A DNA stretch of 64,000 nucleotides from Mesorhizobium sp. 65-26 (GTDB lineage: Bacteria; Pseudomonadota; Alphaproteobacteria; Rhizobiales; Rhizobiaceae): assembly GCA_001899205.1 (NCBI GenBank), contig MKVL01000039.1, forward strand, positions 111,602 through 175,601, in the 5' to 3' direction. Positions within the stretch are counted from its first letter, which is position 1. Each line of letters begins with the position of its first letter. Both the position numbers and the translations under genes were made by a program. Of this stretch, positions 9,280-51,276 are shown in pieces. The notes under the pieces were generated by a model. It made no database searches and was not told where the DNA came from. It saw nothing but the letters and a program-made list of their open reading frames with translations.

Positions 9280-9314
9280 TTGCATTAAATAGAAATCAAT
9301 TCTATTATACAGAA
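9280..9314. promoter_or_regulatory. Predicted IclR-type operator array 1 (purU / MBL divergent promoter)
   Basis: Half-sites TTGCA-N5-TAGAA-N5-TTCTA-N5-CAGAA, 10-bp period. Centre of the intergenic region; 73 bp from the purU start and 105 bp from the MBL start. Read by eye and aligned with eight other arrays in the window. Confidence 0.6.
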
Positions 9315-9418
9315 CTTTTGCAGAGCGCCGCAGACCGTACACTCCGTTCGCAGGGCGAAAGGCCCGGTGACGACGCGCGCACGAAATGAGCAGAATTGGA
9401 TTTTCGAAGGGAACAGCG

Positions 9419-10300
9419 ATGCAGCATCAGCCGGAAGTGACTGGCTTCCACGACCCGCGCACCGGGTCGGTCCAATTCGTCGTCGCCGATACGCAGGCCG
9501 GCAGATGCGCCATCATCGATCCCGTGCTCGACTACGACGAGAAGGCCGGAACCATCGCGACCCGAAACGCCGACGCGATCCTCGGCTTTGTCGCCAACAG
9601 AGGCTATGCGATCGACTGGATCCTCGATACGCATCCGCACGCGGACCACTTCTCGGCGGCCGACTACCTCAAGCGGCGGACCGGCGCGCCGATTGCCATC
9701 GGCGAGAACATCGTCGGCGTCCAGAAGCTGTGGAAGGACTTTTACCACCTGCCGGATTTCCGCGCCGACGGCTCGCAATGGGATCGGCTGTTCACCGCCG
9801 GCGATACGTTCAAGGTCGGCGACATCGATGCGCGCGTGATGTTCTCGCCCGGCCACACCATGGCCTCCATCACCTACGTCATCGGTGACGCGGCCTTCAT
9901 CCATGACACGCTTTTCATGCCGGACGGCGGCACGGCGCGCGCAGATTTTCCGGGCGGCAGCGCCGCCGCCCTGTGGTCATCGATCCAGGCAATCCTCGCC
10001 CTGCCGGACGAAACGCGCCTGTTCACCGGCCACGACTACCAGCCCGGCGGGCGCGAGCCACGGTGGCAATCCACGGTCGCCCAACAGAAGGCTGGAAACA
10101 TCCATCTCGGCGGTGGCCGCGACGCGGCGGGTTTCATCGCCATGCGCGAGGCGCGCGATGCGACCCTGCCCATGCCGAAGCTCATTCTTCACGCCATGCA
10201 GATCAACATCAACGCCGGCCGGTTGCCGGAGCGCGAACCCAACGGGCAGCGCTACATGAAGATCCCGCTCGGACTGTTCGATGCAGCCCCCTGGGGCTGA
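9419..10300 (+). CDS. MBL-fold hydrolase, persulfide dioxygenase-like (ETHE1/Blh family)
   Basis: Metallo-beta-lactamase-fold enzyme of the mononuclear-iron persulfide dioxygenase group, which oxidise glutathione persulfide to sulfite. The 293-residue protein has the ligand motif THPHADHF, then FSPGHTMAS, DTLFMPDGGTARADFPGG and TGHDYQPGG, the four landmarks of this group. The C-terminal extension with ARDATLPMPKL matches Blh-type members. The start at 9419 is chosen over an in-frame ATG at 9386 because GAAGGGA lies 6 nt upstream. It is transcribed away from purU-metF with a shared operator. With the methionine gamma-lyase-like enzyme and the sulfurtransferase elsewhere in the island it suggests handling of a released thiol or sulfide. 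Glyoxalase II is a less likely reading. Confidence 0.83.
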   Translation: MQHQPEVTGFHDPRTGSVQFVVADTQAGRCAIIDPVLDYDEKAGTIATRNADAILGFVANRGYAIDWILDTHPHADHFSAADYLKRRTGAPIAIGENIVGVQKLWKDFYHLPDFRADGSQWDRLFTAGDTFKVGDIDARVMFSPGHTMASITYVIGDAAFIHDTLFMPDGGTARADFPGGSAAALWSSIQAILALPDETRLFTGHDYQPGGREPRWQSTVAQQKAGNIHLGGGRDAAGFIAMREARDATLPMPKLILHAMQININAGRLPEREPNGQRYMKIPLGLFDAAPWG

Positions 10301-10329
10301 GCCGGCACTAGCCCCTCGCCCGACTCACC

Positions 10330-11283
10330 TCAGGCCTCTTGCGATGCTCCATCCAGGGCAGCGACCTGTTCGGACGTGAGGGCCAGCGTTGCCGCGTCGA
10401 GCACGGCATCCATCTGCTCCGGCCGGCTGGCGCTGACGATGGCGGCGGCGACGGTTGGCCGGGCGATCAGCCAGGCGAGCGCGACCTGGGCCGGCGTGGC
10501 CGCTTGCGCTTCCGCCACCGCGTCGACCGCGGCCAGGATACGCAGGCCACGCTCGTTCAGGTAATTTATGGCGGTGCTGCCGCGCGGGCTCTGACCGCTG
10601 CTGGCCAGCGCGCGATATTTGCCGGTGAGAAAGCCCTGGGCCAGCGAACGGTAGGTCAGCACACCCAGGTCCTGGCTCTGGCAGACCGGGGCCAGTTCCT
10701 TTTCATACACGGCGCGGTCATAGAGATTGTAGAGCGTCTGGAAACTCTCGAAGCGCGGCAGGCCCTTGGCTGCGCTCGTCTCCAGTGCCGCCGCCAGCCG
10801 CGGCGCTTCGTAGTTCGAGGCGCCGATCACGCGGGCCTTTCCCGCCTCGATCAAGCGGTCGAACGCCTCCAGCGTTTCGTCGAGCGGCGTTTCCGGGTCG
10901 TCTATATGCGCCTGGTAGAGATCGATGTAGTCGGTCTGAAGCCGCTTCAGTGACGCCTCGACGCCCGCGATGATGTAGTCGCGCTTCAGCCCTTGCCGCT
11001 CGTCGCCGAAGCTTTCACCGACCTTGGTGGCGATCTTGACGCGATCGCGCCCGCCGCGCGACTTCAGCCAGTTGCCGATGATGGTTTCGGATTCGCCGCC
11101 GCTGTTGCCGTTGGCCCAGAGATAATAGACATCGGCCGTGTCGATGAGATCGAAGCCGCGCGCGACGAAGCGGTCCAGTATGTCGAAGGCTGTTCCTTCC
11201 GGGACCGTCCAGCCGAAAACACTGGAGCCGAGCGCAATGGGCGCGGTCGTCAGATCGGATCTACCGATGCGTCTGCTGTCCAT
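10330..11283 (-). CDS. Aldo/keto reductase
   Basis: NAD(P)H-dependent oxidoreductase with a TIM barrel, 317 residues. Visible landmarks are the N-terminal GRSDLTTAPIALGSSVFGW strand, DTADVY with the catalytic Tyr, KIATKVG with the active Lys, and DLYQAHIDDPETP with the His/Asp region. RVIGASNY and the C-terminal VAIVSASRPEQ cofactor loop follow. Related to the YajO/Tas-like branch used on small aldehydes and sugars. Divergent from a GMC oxidoreductase gene across 109 bp that holds operator array 2. The substrate is not evident; a carbonyl intermediate of the island's pathway is an inference from the shared control region. Confidence 0.9.
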   Translation of the reverse strand: MDSRRIGRSDLTTAPIALGSSVFGWTVPEGTAFDILDRFVARGFDLIDTADVYYLWANGNSGGESETIIGNWLKSRGGRDRVKIATKVGESFGDERQGLKRDYIIAGVEASLKRLQTDYIDLYQAHIDDPETPLDETLEAFDRLIEAGKARVIGASNYEAPRLAAALETSAAKGLPRFESFQTLYNLYDRAVYEKELAPVCQSQDLGVLTYRSLAQGFLTGKYRALASSGQSPRGSTAINYLNERGLRILAAVDAVAEAQAATPAQVALAWLIARPTVAAAIVSASRPEQMDAVLDAATLALTSEQVAALDGASQEA

Positions 11284-11323
11284 GGGCAGTCCCTCCGATC
11301 AAGTTTCGCCACCTGCGCGATTA

Positions 11324-11358
11324 TTCCAATATCAGGAACATTGACACAATATATGAAA
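11324..11358. promoter_or_regulatory. Predicted IclR-type operator array 2 (AKR / GMC divergent promoter)
   Basis: Half-sites TTCCA-N5-AGGAA-N5-ACACA-N5-TGAAA. Lies 41 bp from the AKR start and 35 bp from the GMC start. A TTGACA at 11341-11346 overlaps the third half-site and could be the -35 box of the GMC promoter, with only a poor -10 (CATCCT) 17 bp on. Confidence 0.65.
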
Positions 11359-11392
11359 CAACTCATCCTGCAAGCGCAGCAGGACAGAACCG

Positions 11393-13033
11393 GTGCTGAA
11401 CACCGCGCGCAAACGCGACCAATACGACTACATCATCGTGGGCGGCGGCTCGGCCGGCGCCGTGGTGGCATCGCGCCTGTCGGAGGACGCCGACGCCACT
11501 GTGCTGCTGATCGAGGCCGGGCCGGCCTGGCATGGTCCCACGGTCCGCATGCCGGCCGCCGCCTTCATCGCCATGTCGGGCCAGCGCTACGCCCAGAGCC
11601 TCGCGACGCTTCCGCAATCCGGCCTGGCGGGACGCAAGGACGCCATCACAGTCGGGCGGACGCTGGGCGGCGGCTCGGCGGTGAATTCGCTGTGCTATCT
11701 CCGGGGTCACGCCCTGGATTTCGACCTCTGGGAGACGATGGGGGCGACCGGCTGGTCCTATGCCTCCACCCTCCCCTATTTTCGCCGCGGCGAGACGCGC
11801 ATTCCCGCGGGAGATGCGCGATATCGCGGCGACGCGGGACCGCTTCAGGTCACGAAGGCACATCCGCACGGTCCGTTCCAGCACGCGTTCCTGGAAGCGG
11901 GCAGCGCGCATCCGTCGGGGGTTACCGACGATCCCAACGGCTTTCGCCAGGAAGGCTTCTTCACCTGTGACCAGACGATAGGCCACGGCCTGCGTGCCAG
12001 CACGGACCGCGCCTATCTACGACCGGCGATGAAGCGGCCGAACCTCACCGTGCTGACCGGGACGACCGCCACCGGCCTCATCGTGAAGGACGGCAAGGTC
12101 GAAGGCGTGCGCGCCCTGAGAAACGGCCGGCAAATGACCTTCAGGACGAGCAGGGAAGTCGTTCTCAGCGCGGGCGCGCTGCGCACGCCGCAGTTGCTGA
12201 TGCTGTCGGGCGTCGGACCGGCCGACCATTTGCGGAAAGTGGGCATCACCCCCGTACTCGACCTGCCAGGCGTCGGCGCCAACCTGCAGGACCACGTCGC
12301 GACACGCCTGTCATGGCAGGCAACCCAACCGCTCAGCCATTCGCTTTACGCAAGTGGGCACCGGCGGCTGACGGCAGGCGGACGCTGGCTGCTGCGGCGC
12401 GACGGCATTGCCGCGACCACCGGACTGGAAACATGCGCCATGCTGCGATCCTCGTATGCCGATGGCACGCCGGACCTGCAGATGTTTCTTTATCCAGCGT
12501 TGATCGAGAACAACCGGCCGGATCCGCGCACGCACGGCTTCGGCATAGGCATCAACCTGAACCGCAGCCGCAGCACGGGGCATCTGCGCCTTGCGTCGGC
12601 CGATCCGCTGGCTGCGCCATTGATCGACCCCCGCTATCTGTCCAACGCCATGGATCTCGCCATTCTCGCTGATGGCATCGACATCGCGCGCGATATCGTC
12701 GAGGACACGGCCTTCCGTGACCTGCGCGGCAGGCCCATGCAGGACCATCGGGCCATTGTCGCCGATCGCCAGGCCTGGCTGCGTCAGACCGTATCCGGCA
12801 ACTGGCATCCGGCCGGCACCTGCCGCATGGGCGAAGGCGACGGCTGTGTCGCCGCCCCGGACGGCAGGGTCCACGGCATCGGCGGCCTGCGCGTCATTGA
12901 TGCCTCGCTGATGCCCGCGATCACCAACGCCAATCTGAACGCTCCCGTCATCATGATGGCGGAGCGGATCTGCGACATGATCCGGGGACGCCCGCTGCTT
13001 GCGCCCGAAGCAGCGCCATTCCACTGGGCCTGA
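11393..13033 (+). CDS. GMC-family FAD-dependent oxidoreductase (choline dehydrogenase-like), copy 1
   Basis: Flavin alcohol dehydrogenase or oxidase, 546 residues, the usual GMC length. Rossmann motif VGGGSAGAVVASRL near residue 17, GMC signature 1 (GRTLGGGSAVNS), signature 2 (SAGALRTPQLLMLSGVGP), and the C-terminal active site NWHPAGTCRMG with the catalytic His, followed by NANLNAPVIMMAE where the second catalytic position is Asn. GTG start with AGGACAG upstream. It faces the AKR gene and converges with the ABC operon. Four GMC paralogues occur in this window; this one and copy 2 keep the HPAGT/HPGGT form, unlike copies 3 and 4. Likely oxidises an alcohol group of the island's substrate; choline itself is possible but not indicated. 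Confidence 0.92.
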   Translation: MLNTARKRDQYDYIIVGGGSAGAVVASRLSEDADATVLLIEAGPAWHGPTVRMPAAAFIAMSGQRYAQSLATLPQSGLAGRKDAITVGRTLGGGSAVNSLCYLRGHALDFDLWETMGATGWSYASTLPYFRRGETRIPAGDARYRGDAGPLQVTKAHPHGPFQHAFLEAGSAHPSGVTDDPNGFRQEGFFTCDQTIGHGLRASTDRAYLRPAMKRPNLTVLTGTTATGLIVKDGKVEGVRALRNGRQMTFRTSREVVLSAGALRTPQLLMLSGVGPADHLRKVGITPVLDLPGVGANLQDHVATRLSWQATQPLSHSLYASGHRRLTAGGRWLLRRDGIAATTGLETCAMLRSSYADGTPDLQMFLYPALIENNRPDPRTHGFGIGINLNRSRSTGHLRLASADPLAAPLIDPRYLSNAMDLAILADGIDIARDIVEDTAFRDLRGRPMQDHRAIVADRQAWLRQTVSGNWHPAGTCRMGEGDGCVAAPDGRVHGIGGLRVIDASLMPAITNANLNAPVIMMAERICDMIRGRPLLAPEAAPFHWA

Positions 13034-13048
13034 CGCCTAAGGGGCGTC
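13032..13048. terminator. Short hairpin between convergent genes
   Basis: GACGCC (13032-13037) pairs with GGCGTC (13043-13048) across a 5-nt loop, immediately between the GMC stop and the ABC ATPase stop. There is no strong T-run on either side, so terminator function is uncertain. Confidence 0.4.
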
Positions 13049-14701
13049 TCAGTTTGCCGCGGCGATAGCGCCGCCGCGCCGCTCGGCCAGCAGCCGCGTC
13101 AGCCAGTCGGGATCCATTTCCGGAACGGACGAGAGCAGCAGGTTGGTGTAGTCCTGCTGCGGGGTTTCCAGGACCTGCGCGCGCGAACCCTGTTCTACCA
13201 GCTTGCCGCCATTCATCACCACCACCTGGTCGGCGATGGCCCGCACGGTCGCGATATCATGGGTGATGAAGACGTAGGTGATGCCCAGTTCCTGCTGCAG
13301 CGTGTCGAGCAGCTTCAGGATTTCCGTCTGCACCAGTTGATCGAGGGCCGACGTGACCTCATCGCAGATGACCAGGCTGGGCTTGGCGGCCAGGGCCCGC
13401 GCGATGCAGACGCGCTGCTTCTGCCCGCCTGAAAGCTCCCCCGGCAGCCGGTCGAGGAATTGCGACCCCATTTCGATCATGTCGAGCAGTTCCACCACGC
13501 GGCGATCCCGCTCCTCGCCCCGCAGGCCAAGATAGAATTCCAGCGGACGACCGATGATCTCCTCGACCGTGTGGCGCGGATTGAGCGCCGTGTCGGGCGA
13601 CTGGTAGATCATCTGGATCTTGCGCAGCAGGTCTCGCGAGCGGCCGCGGAACCCGGAGGGCAGCACTTGTCCCTCGAACACCATCTTGCCTGACCAGACC
13701 GGAACCATGCCGGAGATCACCTGGGCGAGCGTCGACTTGCCCGAGCCCGACTCTCCGACAATGGCCAGCGTGCGGCCACGCTGCACCTTCAGCGAGACGT
13801 CATCCAGCACCTTGACGGATTTTGCGTAGCCGCTCGACAGGCCCTCGATGGAGAGGTGGGTATCCGTCTCCGGGCGCTCGGCCTGCGACATGGCCCGCAC
13901 CGACCATAGCGATCGGGTGTATTCGGTCTCGGGCTCCGCCAGCATCTTCCGCGTCGGCGCTTCCTCGACCGCGATACCGTGGCGCAGCACCATGATGCGA
14001 TCGGCCATCTGCGCGACGACGGCCAGGTCGTGCGAGATATAGATGGCGGCTGTGTTGAACTCGCGCACCACCTCGCGCATCGAGGCGAGCACCTCGACCT
14101 GGGTCGTTACGTCGAGCGCGGTTGTCGGCTCGTCGAAGATGATCAGGTCGGGGCGGCATTCCATCGCCATCGCCGTCATGGCGCGCTGCAACTGGCCGCC
14201 CGACACCTGATGCGGGAACCGGAAACCGATTTCGGCCGCGCGCGGCAGGCGCAGCTTGCCGAACATCTCCACCGCCCGCGCCGCCGCCAGCCGACGGCCG
14301 AGCAGCCCGTGGCGAACGGCAGTCTCGATGGTCTGGTCGAGCAGGCGATGGCTGGGGTTGAACGACGCGGCGGCGCTTTGCGCCACATAGGCGATGCGCG
14401 AGCCGCGCATGAGCCGGAGTTCCTCCTCCGGGAGGCTCAGCATGTCCTTGCCGTCGAAGGTGACGCTGCCGCCGGTGATGCGGCAACCGGGCTTGGCGTA
14501 TCCCATCGCCACAAGGCCCAGGGTTGACTTGCCGGCGCCGGATTCACCGATGAGACCGAGGATCTCGCCGCGTTCCAGCCGCAGGTCGACGCCCTTCACG
14601 ATCGGATGCCAGCGATCGTCGGAAAAGCCGTCGACCTTGAGGCCGGCTATCTGCAGGAGCGGCGCGCCCTTCTGGCGGGGCTCGGATTTGCTAGCGTTCA
14701 T
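13049..14701 (-). CDS. Peptide-type ABC transporter ATPase, fused DppD-DppF form
   Basis: Two complete ATPase halves in one 550-residue chain, energising an oligopeptide/nickel-family (PepT) importer. The first half has Walker A GESGAGKST, signature VSGGQLQR and Walker B LIIFDEP; the second has GESGSGKST, LSGGQKQR and LVICDE. The second Walker B lacks the usual Pro after DE (DEVTSALD), a common variant. Oligopeptide-type C-terminal extensions follow both halves. It overlaps the upstream permease gene by 11 bp and is the last gene of the operon SBP-permease-permease-ATPase. Fused ATPases of this type are usual in rhizobial opine, peptide and glycoside uptake systems. Confidence 0.93.
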   Translation of the reverse strand: MNASKSEPRQKGAPLLQIAGLKVDGFSDDRWHPIVKGVDLRLERGEILGLIGESGAGKSTLGLVAMGYAKPGCRITGGSVTFDGKDMLSLPEEELRLMRGSRIAYVAQSAAASFNPSHRLLDQTIETAVRHGLLGRRLAAARAVEMFGKLRLPRAAEIGFRFPHQVSGGQLQRAMTAMAMECRPDLIIFDEPTTALDVTTQVEVLASMREVVREFNTAAIYISHDLAVVAQMADRIMVLRHGIAVEEAPTRKMLAEPETEYTRSLWSVRAMSQAERPETDTHLSIEGLSSGYAKSVKVLDDVSLKVQRGRTLAIVGESGSGKSTLAQVISGMVPVWSGKMVFEGQVLPSGFRGRSRDLLRKIQMIYQSPDTALNPRHTVEEIIGRPLEFYLGLRGEERDRRVVELLDMIEMGSQFLDRLPGELSGGQKQRVCIARALAAKPSLVICDEVTSALDQLVQTEILKLLDTLQQELGITYVFITHDIATVRAIADQVVVMNGGKLVEQGSRAQVLETPQQDYTNLLLSSVPEMDPDWLTRLLAERRGGAIAAAN

Positions 14702-15575
14702 CCCGAAGCCCGCTCGTACGATAGAGATACCAGTCGATCACGAAGTTGATGGCGATCGTCAGCAACGCGATAGCCGCCGCCGGCAGCAGCGGCGTGATGT
14801 TGCCGTAGGAGATGAGAGCCGCGTTCTCGCGCACCATCGACCCCCAATCCGCTGTCGGCGGCTGGATGCCGACACCGAGGAAGGACAGCGCCGCGATGGA
14901 CAGAAACACGAAGCAGAACCGCAGGCCGAACTCGACGATCAGCGGCGCCATGATGTTGGGCAGTATCTCGCGACGGATCAGCCAGACGGCGCTCTCGCCA
15001 CGGACGCGGGCGATCTGGATGAAGTCCATCACCACGACATTGCCGGCCGCGGCCCGTGCCAGGCGGAACACCCGCGTGGCATCGAGAGCGGCGAGCGTCA
15101 CGATCAGGTTGGGGATCGAGGAACCGAAAGCCGACAGGAACAGCAAGGCGAAGATGACGCTGGGGATCGACATGAAGACGTCGACGATGCGCGAGCAGAG
15201 CTGGTCGAGCCAGCCGCCATAGAGCGCGGCGACAATGCCGAGCGTGCCACCGAGGAGGAAGGCCAGGCAAGTGGTGATCACGGCGATGCCCACCGTGTTG
15301 CGCGCGCCGTAGATCAGTCGCGACAGGACATCGCGGCCAAGCTGGTCGGTACCGAGCAGAAAATGCCCGCCCCAGGCCATATAGGGTTGCCCGGCGACCG
15401 TGGCCTCGTTGTACGGGGCGATCTGCGGCGCGAACAGCGCGAGGATGGCATAGGCAAGGATCACCAGCACGCCGAACCAGGCGGTGAAACGCGCATGGCG
15501 CATCTCTTTCAGCAGGCGGCTGAACCAGGAGCGTCGGCGGCGCGTGACCGCCGGAGTCATGTCTGGAGAACTCAT
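14691..15575 (-). CDS. Peptide-type ABC transporter permease (DppC-like)
   Basis: Inner-membrane permease, 294 residues. A short basic cytoplasmic N-terminus (TRRRRSWFSRLLKEMRHAR) leads into a first membrane helix, then a periplasmic loop with HFLLGTDQLGRDVLSRLIYGAR, the DppC hallmark, and further helices. The EAA loop for contact with the ATPase is visible around RAAAGNVVVMDFIQIARVRG. Overlaps both neighbours by 4 and 11 bp, so the three membrane-complex genes are translationally coupled. Confidence 0.93.
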   Translation of the reverse strand: MSSPDMTPAVTRRRRSWFSRLLKEMRHARFTAWFGVLVILAYAILALFAPQIAPYNEATVAGQPYMAWGGHFLLGTDQLGRDVLSRLIYGARNTVGIAVITTCLAFLLGGTLGIVAALYGGWLDQLCSRIVDVFMSIPSVIFALLFLSAFGSSIPNLIVTLAALDATRVFRLARAAAGNVVVMDFIQIARVRGESAVWLIRREILPNIMAPLIVEFGLRFCFVFLSIAALSFLGVGIQPPTADWGSMVRENAALISYGNITPLLPAAAIALLTIAINFVIDWYLYRTSGLRDER

Positions 15576-16672
15576 CGCGAATACATCAGTCGTGGATTGG
15601 TCACGATCGCGATGACATCGGCAACAAGGTTCAGCACGATGTAGGTCGCCGCGAAGATGAGCGCGCAGGCCTGCACGACAGGCATGTCGCGAGAGCGGAC
15701 CGCGTCGACCATGAGCTGGCCGATCCCCGGATAGACGAAGACGACCTCGACAACGACGACGCCGACGATCAGGTAGGCGAGATTAAAGGCGACGACGGTC
15801 GCGATCGGCGCCCAGGCATTGGGCAGCGCGTGCTTGAAGACGATCCACGCCGACGAAAGGCCCTTCAACCGGCCCATCTCGATATAGGGGCTGGCCAGCA
15901 CGTTGATCAGGACAGCTCGGGTCATCCGCATCATATGCGCGATGATGACCAGCGTCAGGGTGAGCGAGGGAAGCAGCAGCTTCCAGATACGCTCCCCGAT
16001 CGTGGTGCTCTCGTTGATGGCGGCGAGCGTGGGGAGCTTGGGCATCAGCGACAGGACCGAGCCTATGCCGGAACTGAGCCAGCTCGGCAGGAGCTGGCCG
16101 AGCTGCGTCATGGCGAACATGTCCTTTGAGATCACCAGATAGCAGAGGATGTAGGCGATGAAGAATTCAGGCACGGAGATCGTCATCAGCGTCAGCCCGT
16201 TTACGGCACGGTCGAAGAACGAGCCGCGATAGAGCGCCGTCAGGGCGCCGAGCAGGATCGCCAGCGGCACGGCGATGATAGCCGTCATCGCCGCCAGGAA
16301 GAAGGTGTTGTAGAGCCGTGGTCCGATGATGGCGCTGACGGCACGCACCGCGCCCGGACGACTGGTCAGCGAACTGCCGAAATCGCCATGGACGGCGCCC
16401 GCCATCCAGCTCAGGTAGCGCTCGATCGGCGGACGGTCGAAGCCGAGCATCTGGCGGTAGGCCTCCACCGTTTCCGGAGAAGCCGAACGCCCCAGGATCG
16501 ACTGTGCGAAATCGCCAGGCAGGGCTTCGATCGACAGATAGATGACGATCGACACCATGAACAGCGTCACCAGTCCAAGCCCGAGCCGTTGCAAAACAGT
16601 GCCTAGCAGGGGCACGATGGCCCGCTGCCTCCCCGGACCCGTCCGACCGGGAACTTCGGCGACATCAGTCAT
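15572..16672 (-). CDS. Peptide-type ABC transporter permease (DppB-like)
   Basis: Second inner-membrane permease, 366 residues, longer than many DppB proteins because of an N-terminal basic extension and a large periplasmic segment. Family marks are LGFDRPPIERYLSWM, GDFGSSL, the VPEFF element after a long helix and the EAA-type loop. The C-terminus AIVTNPRLMYSR is conventional. It overlaps the DppC-like gene by 4 bp. An 85-bp gap with a strong stem-loop separates it from the binding-protein gene upstream. Confidence 0.92.
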   Translation of the reverse strand: MTDVAEVPGRTGPGRQRAIVPLLGTVLQRLGLGLVTLFMVSIVIYLSIEALPGDFAQSILGRSASPETVEAYRQMLGFDRPPIERYLSWMAGAVHGDFGSSLTSRPGAVRAVSAIIGPRLYNTFFLAAMTAIIAVPLAILLGALTALYRGSFFDRAVNGLTLMTISVPEFFIAYILCYLVISKDMFAMTQLGQLLPSWLSSGIGSVLSLMPKLPTLAAINESTTIGERIWKLLLPSLTLTLVIIAHMMRMTRAVLINVLASPYIEMGRLKGLSSAWIVFKHALPNAWAPIATVVAFNLAYLIVGVVVVEVVFVYPGIGQLMVDAVRSRDMPVVQACALIFAATYIVLNLVADVIAIVTNPRLMYSR

Positions 16673-16704
16673 TATGTGATCCCGACCCTGGCCTCGATGG
16701 AAGG

Positions 16705-16740
16705 CCGCATCCTGAGCGGCATGATCGCCTCAGGATGCGG
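16705..16740. promoter_or_regulatory. 12-bp perfect inverted repeat between binding-protein and permease genes
   Basis: CCGCATCCTGAG at 16705-16716 and its exact complement at 16729-16740, with a 12-nt loop. No U-tract follows in the minus-strand transcript, so it is more likely an mRNA-stabilising or partial-attenuation element that lets the binding protein be made in excess of the permeases than a full terminator. Confidence 0.7.
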
Positions 16741-16757
16741 TTGACATGGCCGAGCCG

Positions 16758-18347
16758 TCAATCCTCGATCCACCAGCGGGAGATGAACTGCCAGCCGTCC
16801 AGCTCCCAGGCCTTTGAGATGCTCTCCGCGTGCTTGACGCGCGACCGGTAGGCCCAGATGTTGTTGGGCAGGATCGGCGCGATCAGGCCGCCTTCGTCAT
16901 GGACGATGCGCTGCATCTCGCCATACATCTCACGACGCTTGGCCTCGTCGAGTTCGGCGCGAGCCGACAGGAGCAGGCTTTCGAACCTCGGGTTGTTGAA
17001 GTGGGTGTCGTTCCACGCCGCGCCCGACTTGAACGCCACCGAGAACATCAGATCCTCGGTCGGCCGGCCGCCCCAGTCCGTGGCGATGAAAGGCTTCTTC
17101 AGCCACACATTCGACCAGTAGCTGTCCGCCGGTTCGTTGATGATGTTCAGGTTGATGCCGATCGGCTTGAGGTTCGACTGATAGAGAAGCGAGCAGTCCA
17201 CCGCCGACGCATAGGCGGCCGACGAAGCCGAGAGATCGACGTTCAACGAGGTCAGGCCCGCCTTCTTGAGGTGATGGGCTGCCCGGTCGGGATCGTATGT
17301 GATCTGCGGAATTTCCGGATCGTAGAAGCGATAGGCCGGCGTTATCGGATGGTCGTTGCCTATCTTTCCATGCCCGGCAAGCGCGACGTTCAAGGCGGCC
17401 TCGCGGTCGATGCCGTATTTGAGCGCCATCCTCACATCGTTGTTGTCGAAGGGCGGGGTGTCGCAGAACATCGTGAAACCGTGGAACCGGAAGCCCGCCA
17501 TCTCCTCGACCTTGACGCCGGGGGCGCCCTGCAGCATCGCCAGGGTGCGGATTTCCGGGCGATCGATGATGTCGACGTCGCCGGTGAGCAGCGCGTTCTG
17601 CCGCGCCGTGGCATCCGTGATGATCAGCACCTCGGCCGAAGCGAGGTGGCCGACATCCGGGTTCCAGTAGTTGTCGGCCTTCTTGAAAAGCGCGCGCACG
17701 CCGGGCTCGAACTCGGCCAGCTGGTAGGGACCCGCCCTGCTTCCATCGTTCTGCCAGTCGATCGTGCCGTCGTCCTTGGCCTTGCAGATCGCCAGCTGGT
17801 AGTCGGTCAGGATATAAGGGAAGTCGGCGTCGCCGGTCTCGAGGTCGAAGACCACGGTCTTGTCGCCGTCAGCAGTGATGTTCTTGACGTTCGCGACGAC
17901 CGACTTGGAGTTGGAGGTCGTCTTGTCGCCACGATGATGGTTGATCGAGGCGATGACATCCTTGGCGGTGACCGCCGAACCGTCGTGGAATTGCGCCGAA
18001 CGCAGCTTGAAGACCCACTTGCGGGCCTGGTCCGAACCCTCCCACGATTCCGCGATGTCGCCCTGCAGCTTGTTGTCGCTGCCGACGACAGTCAATTTTG
18101 CATGGCAGGTGTAGGACAGCATGATGGAGAAGCCGTGGGCATAGGTGCCCGGCTCGACCGAGTCCGTGGTCTGGCCGAACGAGCAGCCCACCTTCATATT
18201 GCCGCCCTTCACAGCGGCCTTGGCCTTGCCCGCCAGGGAGAAAGAACCCGCCGCCAGGGCCAGGCCGAAGGCACCGGCAGTCTTGATCAAACCGCGGCGA
18301 TTTATCGAGCCGATGATCCCGGCGTCCTTGTTGTCTGAAGCATGCAT
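16758..18347 (-). CDS. Peptide-type ABC transporter substrate-binding protein (SBP_bac_5), Tat-exported
   Basis: Periplasmic solute receptor of the importer, 529 residues. The N-terminus has a twin-arginine signal, NRRGLIKTAGAFGLALAAGS, ending around GKAKAA. The mature part shows family 5 features: AESWEGSDQARKWVFKLRS, FHDGSAVTAKDVIAS, LVIITDATARQNALLTGDVDI, DRPEIRTL and a C-terminal EMYGEMQRIVHDEGGLIAPI. Tat export suggests folding or cofactor needs before export, or simply lineage habit. First gene of the uptake operon; a clear operator array begins 74 bp upstream. The ligand may be any di-/oligopeptide-like or cationic compound; membership in the IclR-type regulon suggests the island's own growth substrate. 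Confidence 0.93.
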   Translation of the reverse strand: MHASDNKDAGIIGSINRRGLIKTAGAFGLALAAGSFSLAGKAKAAVKGGNMKVGCSFGQTTDSVEPGTYAHGFSIMLSYTCHAKLTVVGSDNKLQGDIAESWEGSDQARKWVFKLRSAQFHDGSAVTAKDVIASINHHRGDKTTSNSKSVVANVKNITADGDKTVVFDLETGDADFPYILTDYQLAICKAKDDGTIDWQNDGSRAGPYQLAEFEPGVRALFKKADNYWNPDVGHLASAEVLIITDATARQNALLTGDVDIIDRPEIRTLAMLQGAPGVKVEEMAGFRFHGFTMFCDTPPFDNNDVRMALKYGIDREAALNVALAGHGKIGNDHPITPAYRFYDPEIPQITYDPDRAAHHLKKAGLTSLNVDLSASSAAYASAVDCSLLYQSNLKPIGINLNIINEPADSYWSNVWLKKPFIATDWGGRPTEDLMFSVAFKSGAAWNDTHFNNPRFESLLLSARAELDEAKRREMYGEMQRIVHDEGGLIAPILPNNIWAYRSRVKHAESISKAWELDGWQFISRWWIED

Positions 18348-18420
18348 CGTAACTTCCCCTAACAGTTGTTTCTTTTTCTAGTACGGAGTCACTTCACGGA
18401 GTTTTTGACGGCGCTTTTGT

Positions 18421-18455
18421 TCCACTTGTTGAACCAATATCGCTACATATGGCAC
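18421..18455. promoter_or_regulatory. Predicted IclR-type operator array 3 (ABC importer promoter)
   Basis: Half-sites TTCCA-N5-TGAAC-N5-TCGCT-N5-TGGCA, 74 bp upstream of the binding-protein start. The first palindrome is near-perfect; the second is weaker. Confidence 0.6.
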
Positions 18456-18503: not shown

Positions 18504-20003
18504 TCAGCTCTTTTCCCTCGCGATCAGTTCGGCTGCCCGATGGCCGATCATCATGCAGGCGGCCGCCATGTTGACGCTGACCATGGTCGGCATGATCGAA
18601 GCGTCCGCGAGGCGCAAACCACCCATGCCGACGACCCGCAACTGCGGATCGACGACACTCAGTGGATCGTCGGCGGCCCCCATGCGACAGGTGCCGCCGG
18701 GGTGGTAACCGGTGGTGGCGGTTTCGCGGATATAGCTTGCGAGTTCGTCGTCGGAAGCGAGCCGCGAGCCCGGCGCCAGCTCGTCACCCAGCCAGCCGTT
18801 CAAGGCAGGCATCCCGAAAAGCCGCCGCGCGAAGCGAATGCCTTCCATCATGACCCGCATGTCGTATCCGTCGGGATCGGTAAAATAGGCCGCGTCGATG
18901 AGCGGAGCCTCATCGGGATCGGCGGAACGCAAGCGCACGGACCCTTCGCTGCGGGCCCGGTTGACCGTCATGTAGGCGGTGAACCCATCGGGAGCCGACG
19001 GAAAGCCGGCGGGCGCGGTCTGCTGCTCGAACAGTTCCGGCCCCAGCTGGATCTCGATATCGGGCCATGCCGCGCTTTCATTCTCGACCCGCGCGAAAAG
19101 CACGCCGGAGTAGTTCCAGAGTTCGTCCGGCGTAACAGCCCTGCGCGACGCTACGTTCACACAGGCCGCGGGATGATCCAGCAGATGCGCCCCGACCTGA
19201 GCGAGCGCATGACGCGGCTGGATGCCAAGTCGAGCCAGTTCGTCCGCCGGGCCGATGCCGGAAAGCATGAGGATGCGGGGAGTGTCGAGCGCGCCGCAGG
19301 ACAGAACGACTTCGCGCCGGGCGACGAAAGCGCCGCGCGGTGTCATCACGCCGGTCACATGACGATCAGCGCCGAAGATCAGGCTGCTGACGGGCGTATC
19401 GGTGAAGATCGCCAGATTGTCCGGCAGCGCCGAGCGCGGGCTGAGAAAGACCTGCGCCGTGGATTCGCGCGCCACGCCGCGCTTGCTCATCCGATAGGAG
19501 CCCCAGCCGGCGTCGAAACCGGTGGCGAAATCGATCGGCGGAAAACCCATTTCTTGCGCGGCTGTCGCCAGCGCATGATGCGCAGGACCTTCCGGCTGCA
19601 CGGTCTCGATGTTGATGCGTTGCTCGAGCGCCTCGAAATGCGGACGCACGGCGTCCACGCCCCAGCCGGCCGCGCCGGCATCGACCCAGTCCTGGTAGTC
19701 GCTTGCCGGCGGGCGAAACCATATGCAGGTATTCTGCGAGGTCGACCCGCCCAGCATGCGGGCGACCGGATAGAGGAAACGCCCATTCCCGACGGGCGGC
19801 TGGAGGATCGGCAGCAGCCGCGCGAGCCCGCTTTCCTTGACTTCCTTGAACCGACGGAAATCCCTCACCTCTTCGCGCGCGACCGCGTCGGGGCCTGCTT
19901 CCAGCAGCGCTACCCATCCGCTCGTGAGTTCCGCGAGCCGGCGCGCGGCGATCGCCCCGGCCGCGCCCCCGCCAACGACGATATGGTCGAACTCCATGTT
20001 CAT
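18504..20003 (-). CDS. GMC-family FAD-dependent oxidoreductase, copy 2
   Basis: Flavin alcohol dehydrogenase, 499 residues, at the short end for GMC proteins. The Rossmann motif HIVVGGGAAGAIAARRL starts at residue 7; signature 1 reads ARMLGGSTSQN (relatives usually have GGSSxxN); SCGALDTPRILMLSGIGP is signature 2; the active-site block is GYHPGGTCRMG. The second catalytic position lies in SVNMAAACMMIGHRAAEL, where Asn is followed by Met-Ala rather than the usual TN-AP. Third gene of a likely operon GcvT1-SDR1-GMC2 with gaps of 43 and 13 bp. The substrate is unknown; the demethylase and SDR partners suggest it oxidises an intermediate of the same route. Confidence 0.9.
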   Translation of the reverse strand: MNMEFDHIVVGGGAAGAIAARRLAELTSGWVALLEAGPDAVAREEVRDFRRFKEVKESGLARLLPILQPPVGNGRFLYPVARMLGGSTSQNTCIWFRPPASDYQDWVDAGAAGWGVDAVRPHFEALEQRINIETVQPEGPAHHALATAAQEMGFPPIDFATGFDAGWGSYRMSKRGVARESTAQVFLSPRSALPDNLAIFTDTPVSSLIFGADRHVTGVMTPRGAFVARREVVLSCGALDTPRILMLSGIGPADELARLGIQPRHALAQVGAHLLDHPAACVNVASRRAVTPDELWNYSGVLFARVENESAAWPDIEIQLGPELFEQQTAPAGFPSAPDGFTAYMTVNRARSEGSVRLRSADPDEAPLIDAAYFTDPDGYDMRVMMEGIRFARRLFGMPALNGWLGDELAPGSRLASDDELASYIRETATTGYHPGGTCRMGAADDPLSVVDPQLRVVGMGGLRLADASIMPTMVSVNMAAACMMIGHRAAELIAREKS

Positions 20004-20016
20004 TCCCGATACGTCC

Positions 20017-20838
20017 TCAGGACTTGCCGCGATGCTTGCCTTGCCGCCGCTCTTGATAGAAACGCGTCGGCTGGCTGGTGCGGGCGGTCAGGCCTCCATC
20101 GACCACAAGCGATGCGCCGGTAACGAAGGATGACTGGTCCGAGGCGAGGAACAGGATTGCCTCGGCGAGTTCGGACGCCTTGCCGATCCGGCCGAGCGCG
20201 CAGGATTCATTGTATTCGCGCTGCTCCTCCTCGGCGATCGTCGCCAGCATCCGTTCCGATGCGACCGGACCCGGGCAGATCGCATTGACGCGGATGCCGT
20301 AGCCGCCCTCTTCCCAGGCGAGCGACTGCGTCAGCGAGATGATCGCAGCCTTGGCGGCGTTGTACGGCGCCCATTCCGGATCGCCGCGCAGGCCCGATAT
20401 GGACGACATGGTGACGATGCTGCCGCCGCCATGCTCGCGCATTGCGGGAATGACGGCCTGGCAGGCGACCAGCGTGCTGCGCAGGTTGAGCGTATACAGG
20501 CGATCCCAGACGGCCAGGTCGATGTCGGCGGTCAAACCCGAGGCGCTGCCGCCGGCGATGTTGATCAGGCTGTCGACACGGCCTCCCGTGCGTTCCAGCA
20601 CCGTAGCGATGGCGCGGCGCAGTTCGCTCTCGTTCATCACGTCGGCACGAAGCGCCTCGACGGGCGCACCATCCTTCGACAGGTCCCGCGCGAGATCCTT
20701 CGCCGCATCCTCCTTCACGTCGAGGATGAAGACGCACGCGCCTTCCGACGCGAGCTGGATGGAACAGGCGCGGCCCATGCCATCGGCGCCGCCGGAGACG
20801 ATCACCACCTTATTCTTGAAACGCTGGCTTGCGGACAT
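20017..20838 (-). CDS. SDR-family oxidoreductase, copy 1
   Basis: Classical short-chain dehydrogenase/reductase, 273 residues. The cofactor motif is SGGADGMGRA in place of TGxxxGIG; a strongly conserved NIAGGSASG, catalytic Ser in SSISG, Tyr/Lys in YNAAKAA and C-terminal GASLVVDGGLTAR complete the fold. ATG at 20838 is preferred over GTG at 20841 because AGGAG sits 5 nt upstream of it. Close paralogue of the SDR at 27357-28178, which shares SGGADGMG, INVAGGS/INIAGGS and VDGGLTAR, so both may act on related intermediates. Second gene of the GcvT1-SDR1-GMC2 operon. Confidence 0.92.
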   Translation of the reverse strand: MSASQRFKNKVVIVSGGADGMGRACSIQLASEGACVFILDVKEDAAKDLARDLSKDGAPVEALRADVMNESELRRAIATVLERTGGRVDSLINIAGGSASGLTADIDLAVWDRLYTLNLRSTLVACQAVIPAMREHGGGSIVTMSSISGLRGDPEWAPYNAAKAAIISLTQSLAWEEGGYGIRVNAICPGPVASERMLATIAEEEQREYNESCALGRIGKASELAEAILFLASDQSSFVTGASLVVDGGLTARTSQPTRFYQERRQGKHRGKS

Positions 20839-34685: not shown

Positions 34686-34687
34686 GG

Positions 34688-41997: not shown

Positions 41998-43003
41998 GGG
42001 CTTTCTCCGCCATATCGAGCGCGACGTCGACGATCATGTCTTCCTGGCCGCCGACCATGCCGCGACTGCCGAGCTCGACCAGGATGGAGCGGACGTCGAC
42101 ATCGTATTGCGCGGCAGCCCGTTCGGCATGGCGAAGGAAGCTCGAATAGACACCGGCATAGCCGAGGGACAGGGTTTCGCGGTCCACCTGAACCGGCCGA
42201 TCCATCAGCGGCCGCACAAGGGTCTCGCCGGCGTCCTGCAGGGCAAACAGATCCGCCCTGTGCACGAAGCCTTCCCGCTCCATCACGGCGACCAGGGGCT
42301 CGATCGGCGTGTTGCCAGCGCCGGCGCCCATGCCGCACAGGGAAGCATCCACACGCACCGCGCCTTCATGCAGGGCCGCGATGCTGTTTGCCACGGAGAC
42401 CGACAGGTTCTGGTGGGCGTGGATGCCTATCTGCGTGACGGGCTGCAGGGCATCGCGATAGGCCCTGATGCGCTCGACCACGCCCTTCATGGTCAAGGCG
42501 CCGCCGGAATCGGTCACATAGACACAATGGGCGCCGTAGCTCTCCATCAGCCTGGCCTGCGCCGCCAGTTCGCGCGGCTCGGCCCGATGCGACATCATCA
42601 GGAAGCCGGAGACATCCATGTCGAGCGCGCGCGCGGCCTCGATATGCTGGCGCGAGATGTCGGCTTCGGTGCAATGCGTCGCAATGCGCACCGACCGCAC
42701 GCCGAGCTTCGCCGCTTCGCGCAGATGCTCGATCGTGCCGATGCCGGGAAGCAGCAGCGTGGTCAGCCTGGCCTGCCGGCAGTTCTCGGCCGCGGCCTCG
42801 ATCCAGCTATGGTCGCTGTTGGAGCCGAACCCGTAGTTCAGCGACGAACCGGCCAGCCCGTCGCCATGGGCGACCTCGATCGCGTCCACGCCGGCGGCGT
42901 CCAGCGCCGCCACGATCTGGCCGAGGCGCTCCGGCGTCATGTGGTGGCGGATGGCATGCATGCCGTCCCTGAGCGTGACGTCCTGAATGTAGACCTGTGT
43001 CAT
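41990..43003 (-). CDS. mhpE: 4-hydroxy-2-oxovalerate aldolase family
   Basis: HMGL-like metal-dependent aldolase splitting 4-hydroxy-2-oxopentanoate into pyruvate and acetaldehyde, 337 residues. [19 protein letters not shown] is the DmpG/MhpE start, [16 protein letters not shown] and [13 protein letters not shown] follow, the metal pair is in [15 protein letters not shown], and [18 protein letters not shown] is complete. The C-terminal domain that contacts the dehydrogenase is present. The ATG overlaps the mhpF stop as ATGA. In known pathways this pair ends meta-cleavage of aromatics; no dioxygenase, hydrolase or hydratase of that kind is in the window. Confidence 0.94.
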
Positions 43004-43935
43004 CCCCGCCCTCCCGAAAGGCCGACAAGCCGCTCGGCGGTGCGCAGCGCCGCCGACGTCATGATGTCGAGATTGCCGGCATAGGACGGCAGGTAGTGCG
43101 CGGCGCCCTCGACCTCGAGGAACACCGACACCTTGAGCCCGGAGAAACGCATGTCATGGTCGGCGAGGATCAGCGGCGCATTGGCCGGCACCCTCTCGAC
43201 CTGCACCTCGTGCTTGAGCCGATAGCCCGGCACATAGCGGCGCACCTCCTCGACCATGGCGCGAACCGCGGCGCGTATGGCGGCCGGATCGGCATCTTCG
43301 CAAAGGCATAGCATGGTGTCGCGCATGGTCAGCGGCGGCTCGGCCGGATTGAGGACGATGATCGCCTTGCCGTGATCGGCGCCGCCGATCTTTTCGATGG
43401 CGCGCGACGTCGTCTCCGTGAACTCGTCGATGTTGGCGCGCGTACCTGGCCCGGCCGACCTGGATGCGATCGCCGCGACGATCTCGGCGTAGCGGACCGG
43501 CGCAACGCGCGAGATGGCGGCCACGATCGGGATCGTCGCCTGGCCGCCGCACGTCACCATGTTGACGTTCGGCGCTTCGAGATGATCCTCGATGTTGACG
43601 CTCGGCACCACGAAGGGACCGATCGCCGCGGGGGTGAGATCGACGCGCCGAATGCCGCGCGCGCCGAGCAGCGCGTCGTGGTGCCTGTGCGCTCCGGCGC
43701 TGGTCGCGTCGAAGGCCAGAACGACCTCATCGGCTTCGGGCATGGCGAGAAATCCCTCCACGCCGCCGTCGCTGACGGGAACCCCGAGCCGCCTGGCGCG
43801 CGCCAGTCCGTCCGACGCTGGGTCGATGCCCACCATCGCCCCCATTTCCAGCACCTCGGAAAGGCGCTTAACCTTGATCATCAGATCGGTGCCGATATTG
43901 CCCGATCCGATGATCGCAACCTTGCGGCGTGTCAT
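43000..43935 (-). CDS. mhpF: Acetaldehyde dehydrogenase (acetylating)
   Basis: Converts acetaldehyde, channelled from the aldolase, to acetyl-CoA with NAD and CoA; 311 residues. Rossmann opening [26 protein letters not shown], then catalytic Cys129 in [12 protein letters not shown], and [22 protein letters not shown], all standard for DmpF/MhpF. First enzyme gene after gntR (84-bp gap). Forms a complex with the aldolase in known systems, and the 4-bp overlap supports equal synthesis. Confidence 0.95.
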
Positions 43936-44019
43936 AATCCAACCTCCACACTCGGTCCCGCCGGCCTCAACCTGGCCTCGACGTCGGAATTCTTCGGCTC
44001 GGATGCCTCTCGTCCCCGC

Positions 44020-44814
44020 TCATGAGCGCGGCTCGCCGCCGGCGACGCGGCGTTCGAACTGGTCCTTGCGGCTTGGGCCGGAGCGGTCCTGCAGGGCGAG
44101 CCTGACCGCGGCCCGCACCAGCCGTGGCTCGAACACCGGCTCGATCTGGGCGATGATGGTAAGCGCGATGCGGGCGTAGTGCTCGGCCAGCAGGCAGGCG
44201 ACCAGGTCGCCGTCGCGCGCGGCGCAGGCGTCCATGATGGCCTGATGCTCGTCGCGCGACTGCTGGTAGGAACTGGCGTGCGTGAGATAGAGCCGGCGGT
44301 AGCGCTCGGCGTGCTCGTTGAGCTGCGCCGAATAGTCTGCGTGACGCGGGCCGGCCGCCCGGATCGCGATCATATGGAACGAGCGGTGCGCCCGGTCGAA
44401 ATCGCTGAATTGCGCGGGCGCCTCGTTTTCCCCCATGACGGCGAGGCAATTTCGCATCTCTTCGATATCGGCGTCGGTCAGATCCGGTACGGTGGAGCGC
44501 ACAGTGGTTGTGTCGAGCTTTATACGAAGTGCATACAGTTCATCGAGGTCAGCCATGGATGTCGGCGAGATGACGACCTGACGCCCGCGCTCGGAGGTGA
44601 CCAGACCCTCCTTCTCGATCAGCCGCAGCGCCTCGCGTACGGGGGTTCGGCTGAGCCCGAGTTCGGCGGAAATCTTGACCTGGGACAAACGGCTGCCGGG
44701 CCTGAACACACCGTCCAGTATGGCCATCCGGATCTTCTCATATGCATCCAGCATGCGAGCGCCCGTCGACTCCTCGTCGATGACAGCGCCGTCCCTTGCC
44801 AAATCGGGGGCCAT
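44020..44814 (-). CDS. GntR-family regulator, FCD (FadR) subfamily
   Basis: Transcriptional regulator, about 264 residues. Winged HTH (residues about 18-80: FRPGSRLSQVKISAELGLSR then TPVREALRLIEKEGLV) and an all-helical FCD effector domain with the metal-binding type residues, DRAHRSFHMIAIRA and DEHQAIMDAC. ATG 44814 is preferred; the frame is open to a TTG at 44835. First gene of the operon with mhpFE and the dehydratase, so it is the likely local regulator. A perfect 6-bp-armed palindrome about 90 bp upstream is a candidate operator. The ligand may be a sugar acid, as for many FCD proteins near dehydratases. Confidence 0.9.
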   Translation of the reverse strand: MAPDLARDGAVIDEESTGARMLDAYEKIRMAILDGVFRPGSRLSQVKISAELGLSRTPVREALRLIEKEGLVTSERGRQVVISPTSMADLDELYALRIKLDTTTVRSTVPDLTDADIEEMRNCLAVMGENEAPAQFSDFDRAHRSFHMIAIRAAGPRHADYSAQLNEHAERYRRLYLTHASSYQQSRDEHQAIMDACAARDGDLVACLLAEHYARIALTIIAQIEPVFEPRLVRAAVRLALQDRSGPSRKDQFERRVAGGEPRS

Positions 44815-45143
44815 TGGCTTCGACACCTCTCCCAACCCGGCGACACGGCACCAGCGATATTGCGATGTCGAAATCTGTATCGCGCGCCAATTGACCAGTC
44901 AACAAACTGTATGCAGTTTTTCAGATCCCAAGGCAGTCAGGGAAAATGCTGACTGCCTCACGGGTCGAGAGCGCGGTGTCATCGGCTGCCAGCGTTGGCA
45001 GCCTCAACCCCATAGGTATTGGTGCGGTACCGAGCCAGGAATCGTGGGAATTGCGATTCTCACGCCTCGACCGCCTGCTGTACCAGTCGTTTTTTCCTCA
45101 GCGAATGCGCTCTCGCCGGCGCGATACCAAGCCGGCGTTCCAC
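44815..45143. other. 329-bp interval between gntR and the ribose-type permease gene
   Basis: Contains the gntR promoter region and candidate operator, then the 3' flank of the permease gene. No binding-protein gene for the neighbouring ABC subunits is present here. The minus strand near 45004-45140 has an open stretch without recognisable fold. No terminator with a convincing T-run was found. Confidence 0.5.
44904..44919. promoter_or_regulatory. Candidate GntR/FCD operator
   Basis: AAACTG-TATG-CAGTTT, perfect 6-bp arms, 90 bp upstream of the gntR start; the inner CTGTATGCAG resembles FCD-type operators (TTGTATACAA class). An 11-nt match to part of it (AACTGTATGCA, minus strand) recurs inside the gntR gene near 44531-44541. 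Confidence 0.5.
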
Positions 45144-49365: not shown

Positions 49366-49481
49366 AAATCTCCTCCTGGTGGGCCGGGCGCCTCCGCGCC
49401 CGCTGCCTTCCTGCCTGATCCCCTCGCGACGTTCCCGCTTGTTATTCGTGCTTCATGTCGATCAGGGACAAATGCGCACGC

Positions 49482-51095
49482 TTACGCCGCGCGCCTTCCA
49501 ATCATTTCCGCCGCCTTCTCGGCGATCATGATCGTCGGGGCGTTGGTATTGCCCGATATCAGCGTCGGCATGATCGAGGCGTCGACCACGCGCAACGCTT
49601 CCAGGCCATGCACTTTGAGGGACGGGTCCACCACCGCCATCGCGTCCTTGCCCATCTTGCAGGTGCCGACCTGATGCGCGATCGACAGGCCGGTCTCGCG
49701 GGCATAGTCGAGAATCTCGTCATCGCTGGCGACCTGCGGACCGGGCGCGTATTCCGCGACGATATGAGCCGCGATCGCGGCCTTTTCGGCAACCTTGCGG
49801 GTGAGCTTGATCGCATCGACGAGGACGCGACGGTCGTTCTCCGCCGAGAGGTAGTTGGGCTGCATCGAGGGCACATCCCGCGGGTCGGCGGAGCGCAGCC
49901 TGAGGGTGCCCCGGCTCTCCGGACGCACCGGGCAGACGGCATTGGCGAAGCCCGAGAATTTGTGCAGGCCGGCATCGTATTCGTCGTGACTGAAGGTCTG
50001 GAACAGAAACTGGATATCCGGCGTCTCCAATCGCGGGTCGGACTTTACGAAGGCGCCCACCTGAGCCGCAGAAATCGTCAGCGGCCCCTGGCGGAACAAC
50101 AGATACTGGAGCCCTGCCTGAACCTGGCGCAGCGGGCTGCGCATAATGTCGTTGACAGTCAGCGGAAGCTTGCTCTTGTAGGTGACCAGCGCGCCATAAT
50201 GGTCCTGGAGGTTTTCACCGACGCCGGGCAGGTCGTGGACCACTGGGATACCCAGCCCGGAGAGTTGCCCCGCCGGCCCGACGCCGGAAAGCAGCAGCAG
50301 CTTGGGTGAATTGATCGAGCCGGAACTGACTATGACCTCGCGGCGCGCCCTGACCGCCACCTTCCGGCCGCCGCGATCGAAGACGACGCCGATGGCGCGC
50401 TTGCCGTTGAACAGGATGCGCTCGCTGTGCGCACGGGTGATCACGCGCAGGTTCGGGCGCTTCATCGCCGGCTTGAGATAGGCGACCGCCGCCGAGCAGC
50501 GTCGCGCGTTGCGGGTCGTGATCTGGTAGAAGCCGACGCCCTCCTGGCTGACGCCGTTGAAATCGTCGTTGCGCGGAATACCCGCGTCCACGGCGCTCTC
50601 GATGAACGCCTGGCACAGCGGGTTCCGCTCGCGCAGGTTGGAAACGCGGAGCGGTCCGCCGTCGCCATGGAATTCGTCGGCGCCGTTCTCCTGGCTCTCG
50701 GCCTTGCGGAAATAGGGAAGGACGTCGTCGTAGGACCAGCCCTCGTTTCCGAGCTGGCGCCAATGGTCGTAGTCCCGCGCCTGGCCGCGAATGTAGAGAA
50801 GGCCATTGATCGAGGACGACCCGCCCAGCACCTTGCCGCGCGGCCAGTACATCGGCCTGTTGCCGATCTCGGCGCCCTTCTCGGTCTCATAACGCCAGTT
50901 GAGGTTCGGATCGACGATCGTCTTGCCGTAGCCGATCGGAATGTGGATCCAGGGATTCCAGTCCTTTCCGCCGGCCTCGAGCAGCGTGACCGAGGTGCGG
51001 CCGTCCTCGGAGAGCCGCCCCGCCAGCGTGCAGCCGGCCGAACCGGCCCCCACAATGACGATATCGGTCTCGATCGTTTCTGAAATGTCGGTCAT
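49482..51095 (-). CDS. GMC-family FAD-dependent oxidoreductase, copy 4
   Basis: 537 residues, tandem paralogue of copy 3. VIVGAGSAGCTLAGRL, GKVLGGSSSINGLLYIRGQ, SSGSINSPKLLLLSGVGP, AHQVGTCKMG and SGNTNAPTIMIAEKAAEM are the matching blocks. ATG 51095 follows a TTG at 51098 in frame. A weak IclR-type array lies 147 bp upstream. It probably acts on the same class of substrate as copy 3. Confidence 0.92.
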   Translation of the reverse strand: MTDISETIETDIVIVGAGSAGCTLAGRLSEDGRTSVTLLEAGGKDWNPWIHIPIGYGKTIVDPNLNWRYETEKGAEIGNRPMYWPRGKVLGGSSSINGLLYIRGQARDYDHWRQLGNEGWSYDDVLPYFRKAESQENGADEFHGDGGPLRVSNLRERNPLCQAFIESAVDAGIPRNDDFNGVSQEGVGFYQITTRNARRCSAAVAYLKPAMKRPNLRVITRAHSERILFNGKRAIGVVFDRGGRKVAVRARREVIVSSGSINSPKLLLLSGVGPAGQLSGLGIPVVHDLPGVGENLQDHYGALVTYKSKLPLTVNDIMRSPLRQVQAGLQYLLFRQGPLTISAAQVGAFVKSDPRLETPDIQFLFQTFSHDEYDAGLHKFSGFANAVCPVRPESRGTLRLRSADPRDVPSMQPNYLSAENDRRVLVDAIKLTRKVAEKAAIAAHIVAEYAPGPQVASDDEILDYARETGLSIAHQVGTCKMGKDAMAVVDPSLKVHGLEALRVVDASIMPTLISGNTNAPTIMIAEKAAEMIGRRAA

Positions 51096-51241
51096 CAATG
51101 TCGATATTCACACCCGGACGACGGCGCCCGGGTCGCCTAATCGTGCAATCGCAAACCGTTTCACAAGGCCCGCGCGGTCGGACCGTGGAGGGGGACGTGG
51201 AGCCGTCCCTCAACCCAAATGAACAGCAGGTTCCGATACAA

Positions 51242-51276
51242 TTCCAATATAAACACACATATTGACCAATACCGAA
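51242..51276. promoter_or_regulatory. Possible IclR-type operator array 9 (GMC copy 4), weak
   Basis: Half-sites TTCCA-N5-AACAC-N5-TTGAC-N5-CCGAA, with only the first clearly matching. It lies 147 bp from the start, twice the usual distance. Included as a borderline case. Confidence 0.3.

Follow-up and report, generated by a model that had tools for sequence, protein, structure and literature searches.

Operators of the IclR family of regulators have been surveyed by Suvorova and Gelfand (2021; PMC8222616). The main text of that report describes a WTT-11-AAW subgroup of motifs with the palindrome WTTYCRYW3RYGRAAW, and for 94 of 181 orthologous groups, both motif groups taken together, it predicts tandem sites whose centres are 18-22 nt from each other. 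It links such tandem sites to binding by tetramers and cites TtgV for this. The operator arrays described here, compared with the tandem sites of that subgroup, have the same type of palindrome, and their 20-nt spacing falls within the 18-22 nt range. They also share the alternating box direction that the same text gives for three-box motifs, and their inner unit, TGRAA-N5-TTYCA, resembles TGGAAATNATTTCCA of E. coli IclR. Unlike the E. coli IclR and PcaU-type sites, however, they contain four boxes rather than two or three, and they accompany different genes. TtgV of Pseudomonas putida (PDB 2xrn, 2xro) is an IclR-family protein that we liken to the regulator of this locus by protein only; among solved relatives it matches with E 2e-19, and 1mkm with 4.4e-30. 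Hydantoin, COG0145, COG0146 and COG0404 are absent from the main text of PMC8222616, whose supplements may contain the clade, and literature searches found no such regulon. We therefore regard the array architecture as one already published for IclR proteins, and the locus as a well-supported new example of a predicted regulon.

The window, by which we mean the whole stretch of 64,000 nucleotides of Mesorhizobium sp. 65-26 that was analyzed, had been the subject of a preliminary description. In it, nine intergenic regions were aligned by eye to TTCCA-N5-TGAAA-N5-TTCCA-N5-TGAAA, and one IclR regulator was proposed to govern about 25 genes over 30 kb. Eight of these arrays stand when judged with independent matrices and background DNA, whereas the ninth, at 51242-51276, is unsecured. 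About 23 genes (7.5-38.7 kb) belong to transcription units that adjoin these eight arrays, so that the proposal of a single regulator is supported in the form of a predicted regulon of about this size. We conclude that the arrays are very probably bipartite operators of the IclR protein encoded at 24830-25648, which would control these genes via eight, possibly nine, arrays. What began as a pattern seen by eye is thus a regulon prediction with cross-species support, in which promoters and regulator are named.

The arrays were located by computation and are assigned no strand. The first (9280-9314) lies between, on the minus strand, a gene for a purU-like formyltetrahydrofolate deformylase (8356-9207; Formyl_trans_N and ACT domains) followed by a metF-like ORF (about 7493-8350; MTHFR 1.8e-6) and, on the plus strand, a gene for a metallo-beta-lactamase-fold hydrolase (9386-10300). 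The second (11324-11358) separates genes for an aldo/keto reductase (10330-11283, minus) and a GMC oxidoreductase (11393-13033, plus). The third, whose start is 18420 and not 18421 as first given, occupies 18420-18454 before the four-gene operon of a dipeptide-type ABC importer (13049-18347, minus). Next, an array at 22098-22132 lies between two GcvT-like genes, one of them read from 22069 together with an SDR and a GMC oxidoreductase gene (18504-22069, minus) and the other on the plus strand (22254-23456). The array at 24726-24760 precedes an N-methyltryptophan/sarcosine oxidase-like (solA-like) gene (23515-24705, minus; NF008425 above cut-off), and that at 25685-25719 precedes iclR itself. 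The array at 28252-28286 is positioned between the genes for an SDR and an amine-oxidase-like flavoprotein (25751-28178, minus) and those for an OYE-like flavoprotein and methionine gamma-lyase (megL; 28274-31654, plus), the listed start of which, 28274, falls inside the array. The eighth array (38820-38854) precedes an operon of hyuA, hyuB, a rhodanese-like gene and a DAO-type FAD oxidase gene (32455-38748, minus), and the weak candidate at 51242-51276 precedes a GMC oxidoreductase gene on the minus strand.

These genes suggest a regulon for the uptake and degradation of a compound that is probably N-methylated, that possibly contains a lactam and sulfur, and whose methyl groups would pass to tetrahydrofolate. 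Bringing hyuAB, megL, the rhodanese-like gene, the GcvT-like demethylases, the flavin oxidases and the importer together as one probable pathway should help in finding the substrate. Just outside the island, positions 3553-7077 (minus strand) encode a large autotransporter (beta-domain, 6.4e-67; PATR repeat). On the other side, 39014-44835 holds a separate catabolic cluster with a glyoxalase-like gene, an SDR, an IlvD-type dehydratase, a DmpG-type aldolase, an acetaldehyde dehydrogenase and a GntR/FCD regulator, and no top-ranked place of the pAMI1-trained or relatives-only matrix scans described below falls inside it.

The arrays recur at orthologous promoters of relatives that carry an orthologous IclR protein. 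Plasmid pAMI1 of Paracoccus aminophilus (locus L018) bears an orthologous island, in which the IclR protein is 55% identical to that of the window and arrays occur at hyuA, solA, gcvT, the importer, iclR and megL. Scored with the raw consensus, five intergenic places in pAMI1 reach 14 to 16 (20545, 16; 17941, 12607 and 9991, 15 each; 6256, 14), and 6431 scores 13, tied with three other places of which one is coding (32212). With a matrix made from the window sites, the top seven places all fall in intergenic DNA, which makes up 7.5% of the bases of that stretch, and for each of five pAMI1 regions 1000 second-order shuffles gave so high a score once at most. In a search of plasmid DNA that listed 8 of 17 records, pAMI1 was the sole one of these with a query coverage above 2%. 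According to PMC3925955, loss of pAMI1 left the growth rate of P. aminophilus unchanged, and 40% of the plasmid's genes relate to amino acids.

Further relatives of the regulator are sparse. No IclR protein was found at E<=1e-60 in 60 relatives, and 7 of 384 other genomes of the class have one at E<=1e-42, with at most 6 candidates scored per genome. A first scan of a contig collection, with the single IclR protein as query, found no relative; twelve further IclR loci came from this collection, the best being that of Paracoccus sp. IB05 (76%). Among 23 distinct other IclR loci (leaving out pAMI1 and counting L042 once with L022, as they share a contig), the window matrix reaches at least 20 in 15 and at least 14 in 20. 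The corresponding counts in own-genome background are 0 and 6 (379,241 positions, masked bases excluded), and 2 of 1,330,038 positions in shuffled relatives reach 14. L026 (just under 14), L043 (11.3) and L046 (8.7) have no site of 14 or more with this matrix.

Many of these sites stand at the same genes as in the window. Arrays are found on the megL side in L018, L035, L036, L037, L038 and L039; at hyuA in L018 (6256), L036 (20066) and L038 (60); at solA-like genes in L018 (6431), L035 (10967), L039 (6718) and L041 (1115); at the importer in L018, L035, L037, L038, L039 and L041; at gcvT in L018 (9991) and L035 (13600); and at iclR in L018, L022, L038, L040 and others. Each of these six promoters thus has an array-bearing counterpart in at least two other genomes. 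The arrays at 9280 and 11324 have no orthologous promoter among the fetched loci, in a comparison of island genes that left out metF and rbsA. In Xanthobacter tagetidis (L045, 3776-20660), six arrays occur near an IclR gene whose product is 41% identical and in a different gene setting, and multi-promoter regulons may be common in the clade.

The protein that we predict to read the arrays (24830-25648, minus strand) contains HTH_IclR (PF09339; 2.5e-13, 50.0 bits with a cut-off of 22) and IclR_C (PF01614; 6.5e-45, 153.2 bits with a cut-off of 24). Its putative recognition helix, [ST]KSN-x-HRLL, is present in 17 of 19 correctly framed rows of the clade, L014 and L045 being the exceptions, and in none of four correctly framed distant paralogues; these counts leave out eight misframed rows (L004, L006, L008, L010, L012, L015, L016 and L017). 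The helix is likewise found in L043 and L046, which show no array. The predicted assignment of the arrays to this protein is based, at the level of sequence, on linkage, on arrays upstream of iclR in several genomes, on the shared helix and on a motif of a published type. The array before iclR scores lower by matrix, yet its position is conserved; it lies 37 bp from the start codon, which fits autoregulation.

A different IclR-family protein of this genome could mainly or also read the arrays, and the linked iclR gene could have other targets. The genome yields 19 matches to the IclR query, iclR itself included, and at one of seven distant own-genome paralogue loci (L005, 29% identity) an array-like site at 1268 scores 21.1 despite a different helix. 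Moreover, in a congener, a hydantoinase locus (L078; G003:C1:254500-274400) carries four arrays scoring 19.6-33.8, at 5165, 5317, 9828 and 9990, around a cluster of hyuAB-like and ABC transporter genes. The sole IclR-like stretch at that locus is 24% identical, and the five ORFs scanned there include no regulator; at L078, operators of this type are probably recognized by a different regulator. Because L005 and L078 have similar arrays without a close orthologue, the code may be shared by further IclR proteins. Against this idea as an account of the window, arrays and island genes accompany the linked IclR clade across genera, and the recognition helix differs in all four correctly framed distant paralogues. 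We therefore consider it unlikely that the arrays are the business of another family member, and the linked IclR protein remains the preferred reader.

The unit of the array consists of two 15-bp palindromes (TTYCR-N5-YGRAA) at offsets 0 and 20 only, as judged over 24 loci, the window among them, with 57 array places; the 20-nt centre spacing is presupposed by the 35-bp search model. In the consensus of 28 chosen sites, TTYC-N7-GRAA palindromes are present, and all 28, which were picked by matrix score, have T at position 1 and A at position 35. Conservation extends about 4 bases beyond both ends, outside the matrix columns, which gives a full site of about 43 bp. Additional overlapping matches at 22078, 11304 and 25664 might suggest that arrays contain more than four half-sites, along which the protein would spread as a longer assembly. 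At only 1 of the 57 array places (L035, 7856) does a third copy of the palindrome, at -20 or +40, score as much as 5, so that six half-sites or longer arrays are rejected as a general rule and such an assembly appears very improbable.

The four-half-site unit suggests how an IclR tetramer would probably engage the DNA. With centres 20 bp apart, the two palindromes would place two IclR dimers on one face of the helix, and the four winged-helix domains of a tetramer could contact the four in-phase half-sites.

The ends of the arrays point to a further feature. The 64 arrays compared, from 25 loci, have 128 ends, and at 12 of these the outer half-site is TTGACA; background DNA shows this hexamer at a rate of 4.5e-5 per position, although the motif itself favours similar letters. 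At 9 of the 12, a -10-like hexamer with AG at places 3-4 (CTAG, CAAG or ATAG) follows 17 bp beyond, a spacer that was set after inspecting the sites and was the only one scored. Six of the nine are on the megL side, including OYE-megL in the window, and three are on the gcvT2 side. In the window, the arrays at 22098 and 28252 both have TTGACA as their right end, followed at 17 bp by CAAGCC and CTAGAT, respectively; arrays ending in TTGACA are likewise present on the megL side in L018, L035, L036, L037 and L038. The TTGACA end and -10-like hexamer at 28252 suggest that the OYE-like gene begins later than its listed start (28274); the following in-frame ATG is at 28358. One of the strongest arrays, in L036 at 11351, has TTGACA at its left end; the DNA around it (10738-13700) shows no match to island genes of the window.

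At several promoters, the outermost half-site appears to serve as the -35 box, where IclR would touch or cover the contact of RNA polymerase with this box. The protein would probably repress where it covers a promoter and perhaps activate where it abuts the -35 box. A more ambitious scheme, which is speculative and which we advance with some doubt, is that one array activates the genes on its TTGACA side, its outer half-site doubling as the -35 box, while the same IclR protein silences iclR from another array. The arrangement would hold clade-wide and would coordinate at least eight promoters, all of them serving an undescribed pathway whose substrate is methylated, sulfur-linked and lactam-like.

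The preliminary description had also drawn attention to distances of 72-74 bp between array and start codon at five promoters. Such distances (73, 72, 73, 74 and 72) were recovered for 5 of 13 array-gene pairs in the window, but the spacing varies in relatives. The remaining distances in the window are 21, 29, 35, 37, 41, 122 and 144 bp, and -12 for the OYE-like ORF with its listed start. In L018, L036 and L038, the distance between hyuA and its array is 68, 62 and 153 bp, respectively, gene starts in L035-L046 being tblastn ends rather than annotated starts, and a constant spacing is therefore rejected as a conserved rule.

The raw consensus matches eight of the nine sites at 12-16 of 20 positions and 51242 at 10-11. 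Because it was derived from the window sites themselves, independent matrices and DNA of other species were used for fairer tests. Against 300 first-order shuffles of each intergenic region, the raw consensus was equalled in 0-0.3% for 9280, 11324, 22098 and 25685, 2.3% for 18420, 7.3% for 38820, 17% for 24726 and 58% for 51242; the region tested for 28252 ended at 28273, with the array outside the tested stretch. With a matrix built from 20 sites of other species only, seven of the eight arrays (23.6-34.4), 9280 among them, score above all 379,354 positions of a 380-kb own-genome background that included masked bases (maximum 19.1). The arrays at 25685 (8.4) and 51242 (8.5) are each equalled or beaten by 14 background positions, and 56 kb adjoining the window have a maximum of 9.2. 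Leave-one-out scoring within the window likewise puts seven of eight above all background, with 25685 exceeded by 9 positions. Background scores thus lie below the eight sites, strictly so for seven.

Matrices trained on pAMI1 provide further evidence. With one made from five consensus-picked pAMI1 sites, the eight arrays outrank all non-overlapping places in the 64 kb, and 51243 comes next at 8.0. Gibbs sampling of five pAMI1 intergenic regions without the consensus recovered the same register at 21.0 bits, compared with 15.8 +- 0.45 (maximum 16.7) in ten shuffled sets. For 13 window regions it gave 16.2 bits versus 14.2 +- 0.34 in six shuffled sets; it placed six arrays in exact register and two others, 11324 and 51242, 20 bp away from it, and it did not recover 25685. 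Shuffled sets were run with half as many restarts. A matrix from the pAMI1 Gibbs sites, whose register is offset by 3 and which shifts some top places by one palindrome, ranks the window places in the order 11321, 9283, 22081, 38817, 28249, 11301, 18417, 22101, 24709 and 51239. Four of these places outscore the entire background, whereas between 1 and 15 background positions equal the remaining ones, and flanking DNA (L033) reaches 15.1.

A chance resemblance among AT-rich promoters of a G+C-rich genome, selected by eye, would fit the AT-richness of all arrays, the failure of 51242, 24726 and 38820 to pass a 5% shuffle level with the raw consensus, and the results just given for the pAMI1 Gibbs matrix, but the independent matrices, the background DNA and the promoters of other species rule it out for eight sites, 51242 excepted, and we give it next to no credence.

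A sequence model built from 28 sites (R1) was also searched against the 6.84-Mb genome, with 150 of 157 candidates scored. Its five matches at E<=10 are all in the island, at four places, with 11324 the best. Since eight of the training sites came from the window and five of the nine arrays were missed, this result supports specificity rather than completeness. In 20 congeners, the model finds matches at E<=10 in 6, and those in G003, which are located at the hydantoinase cluster of L078, equal the top island site in strength (E 0.186 versus 0.192).
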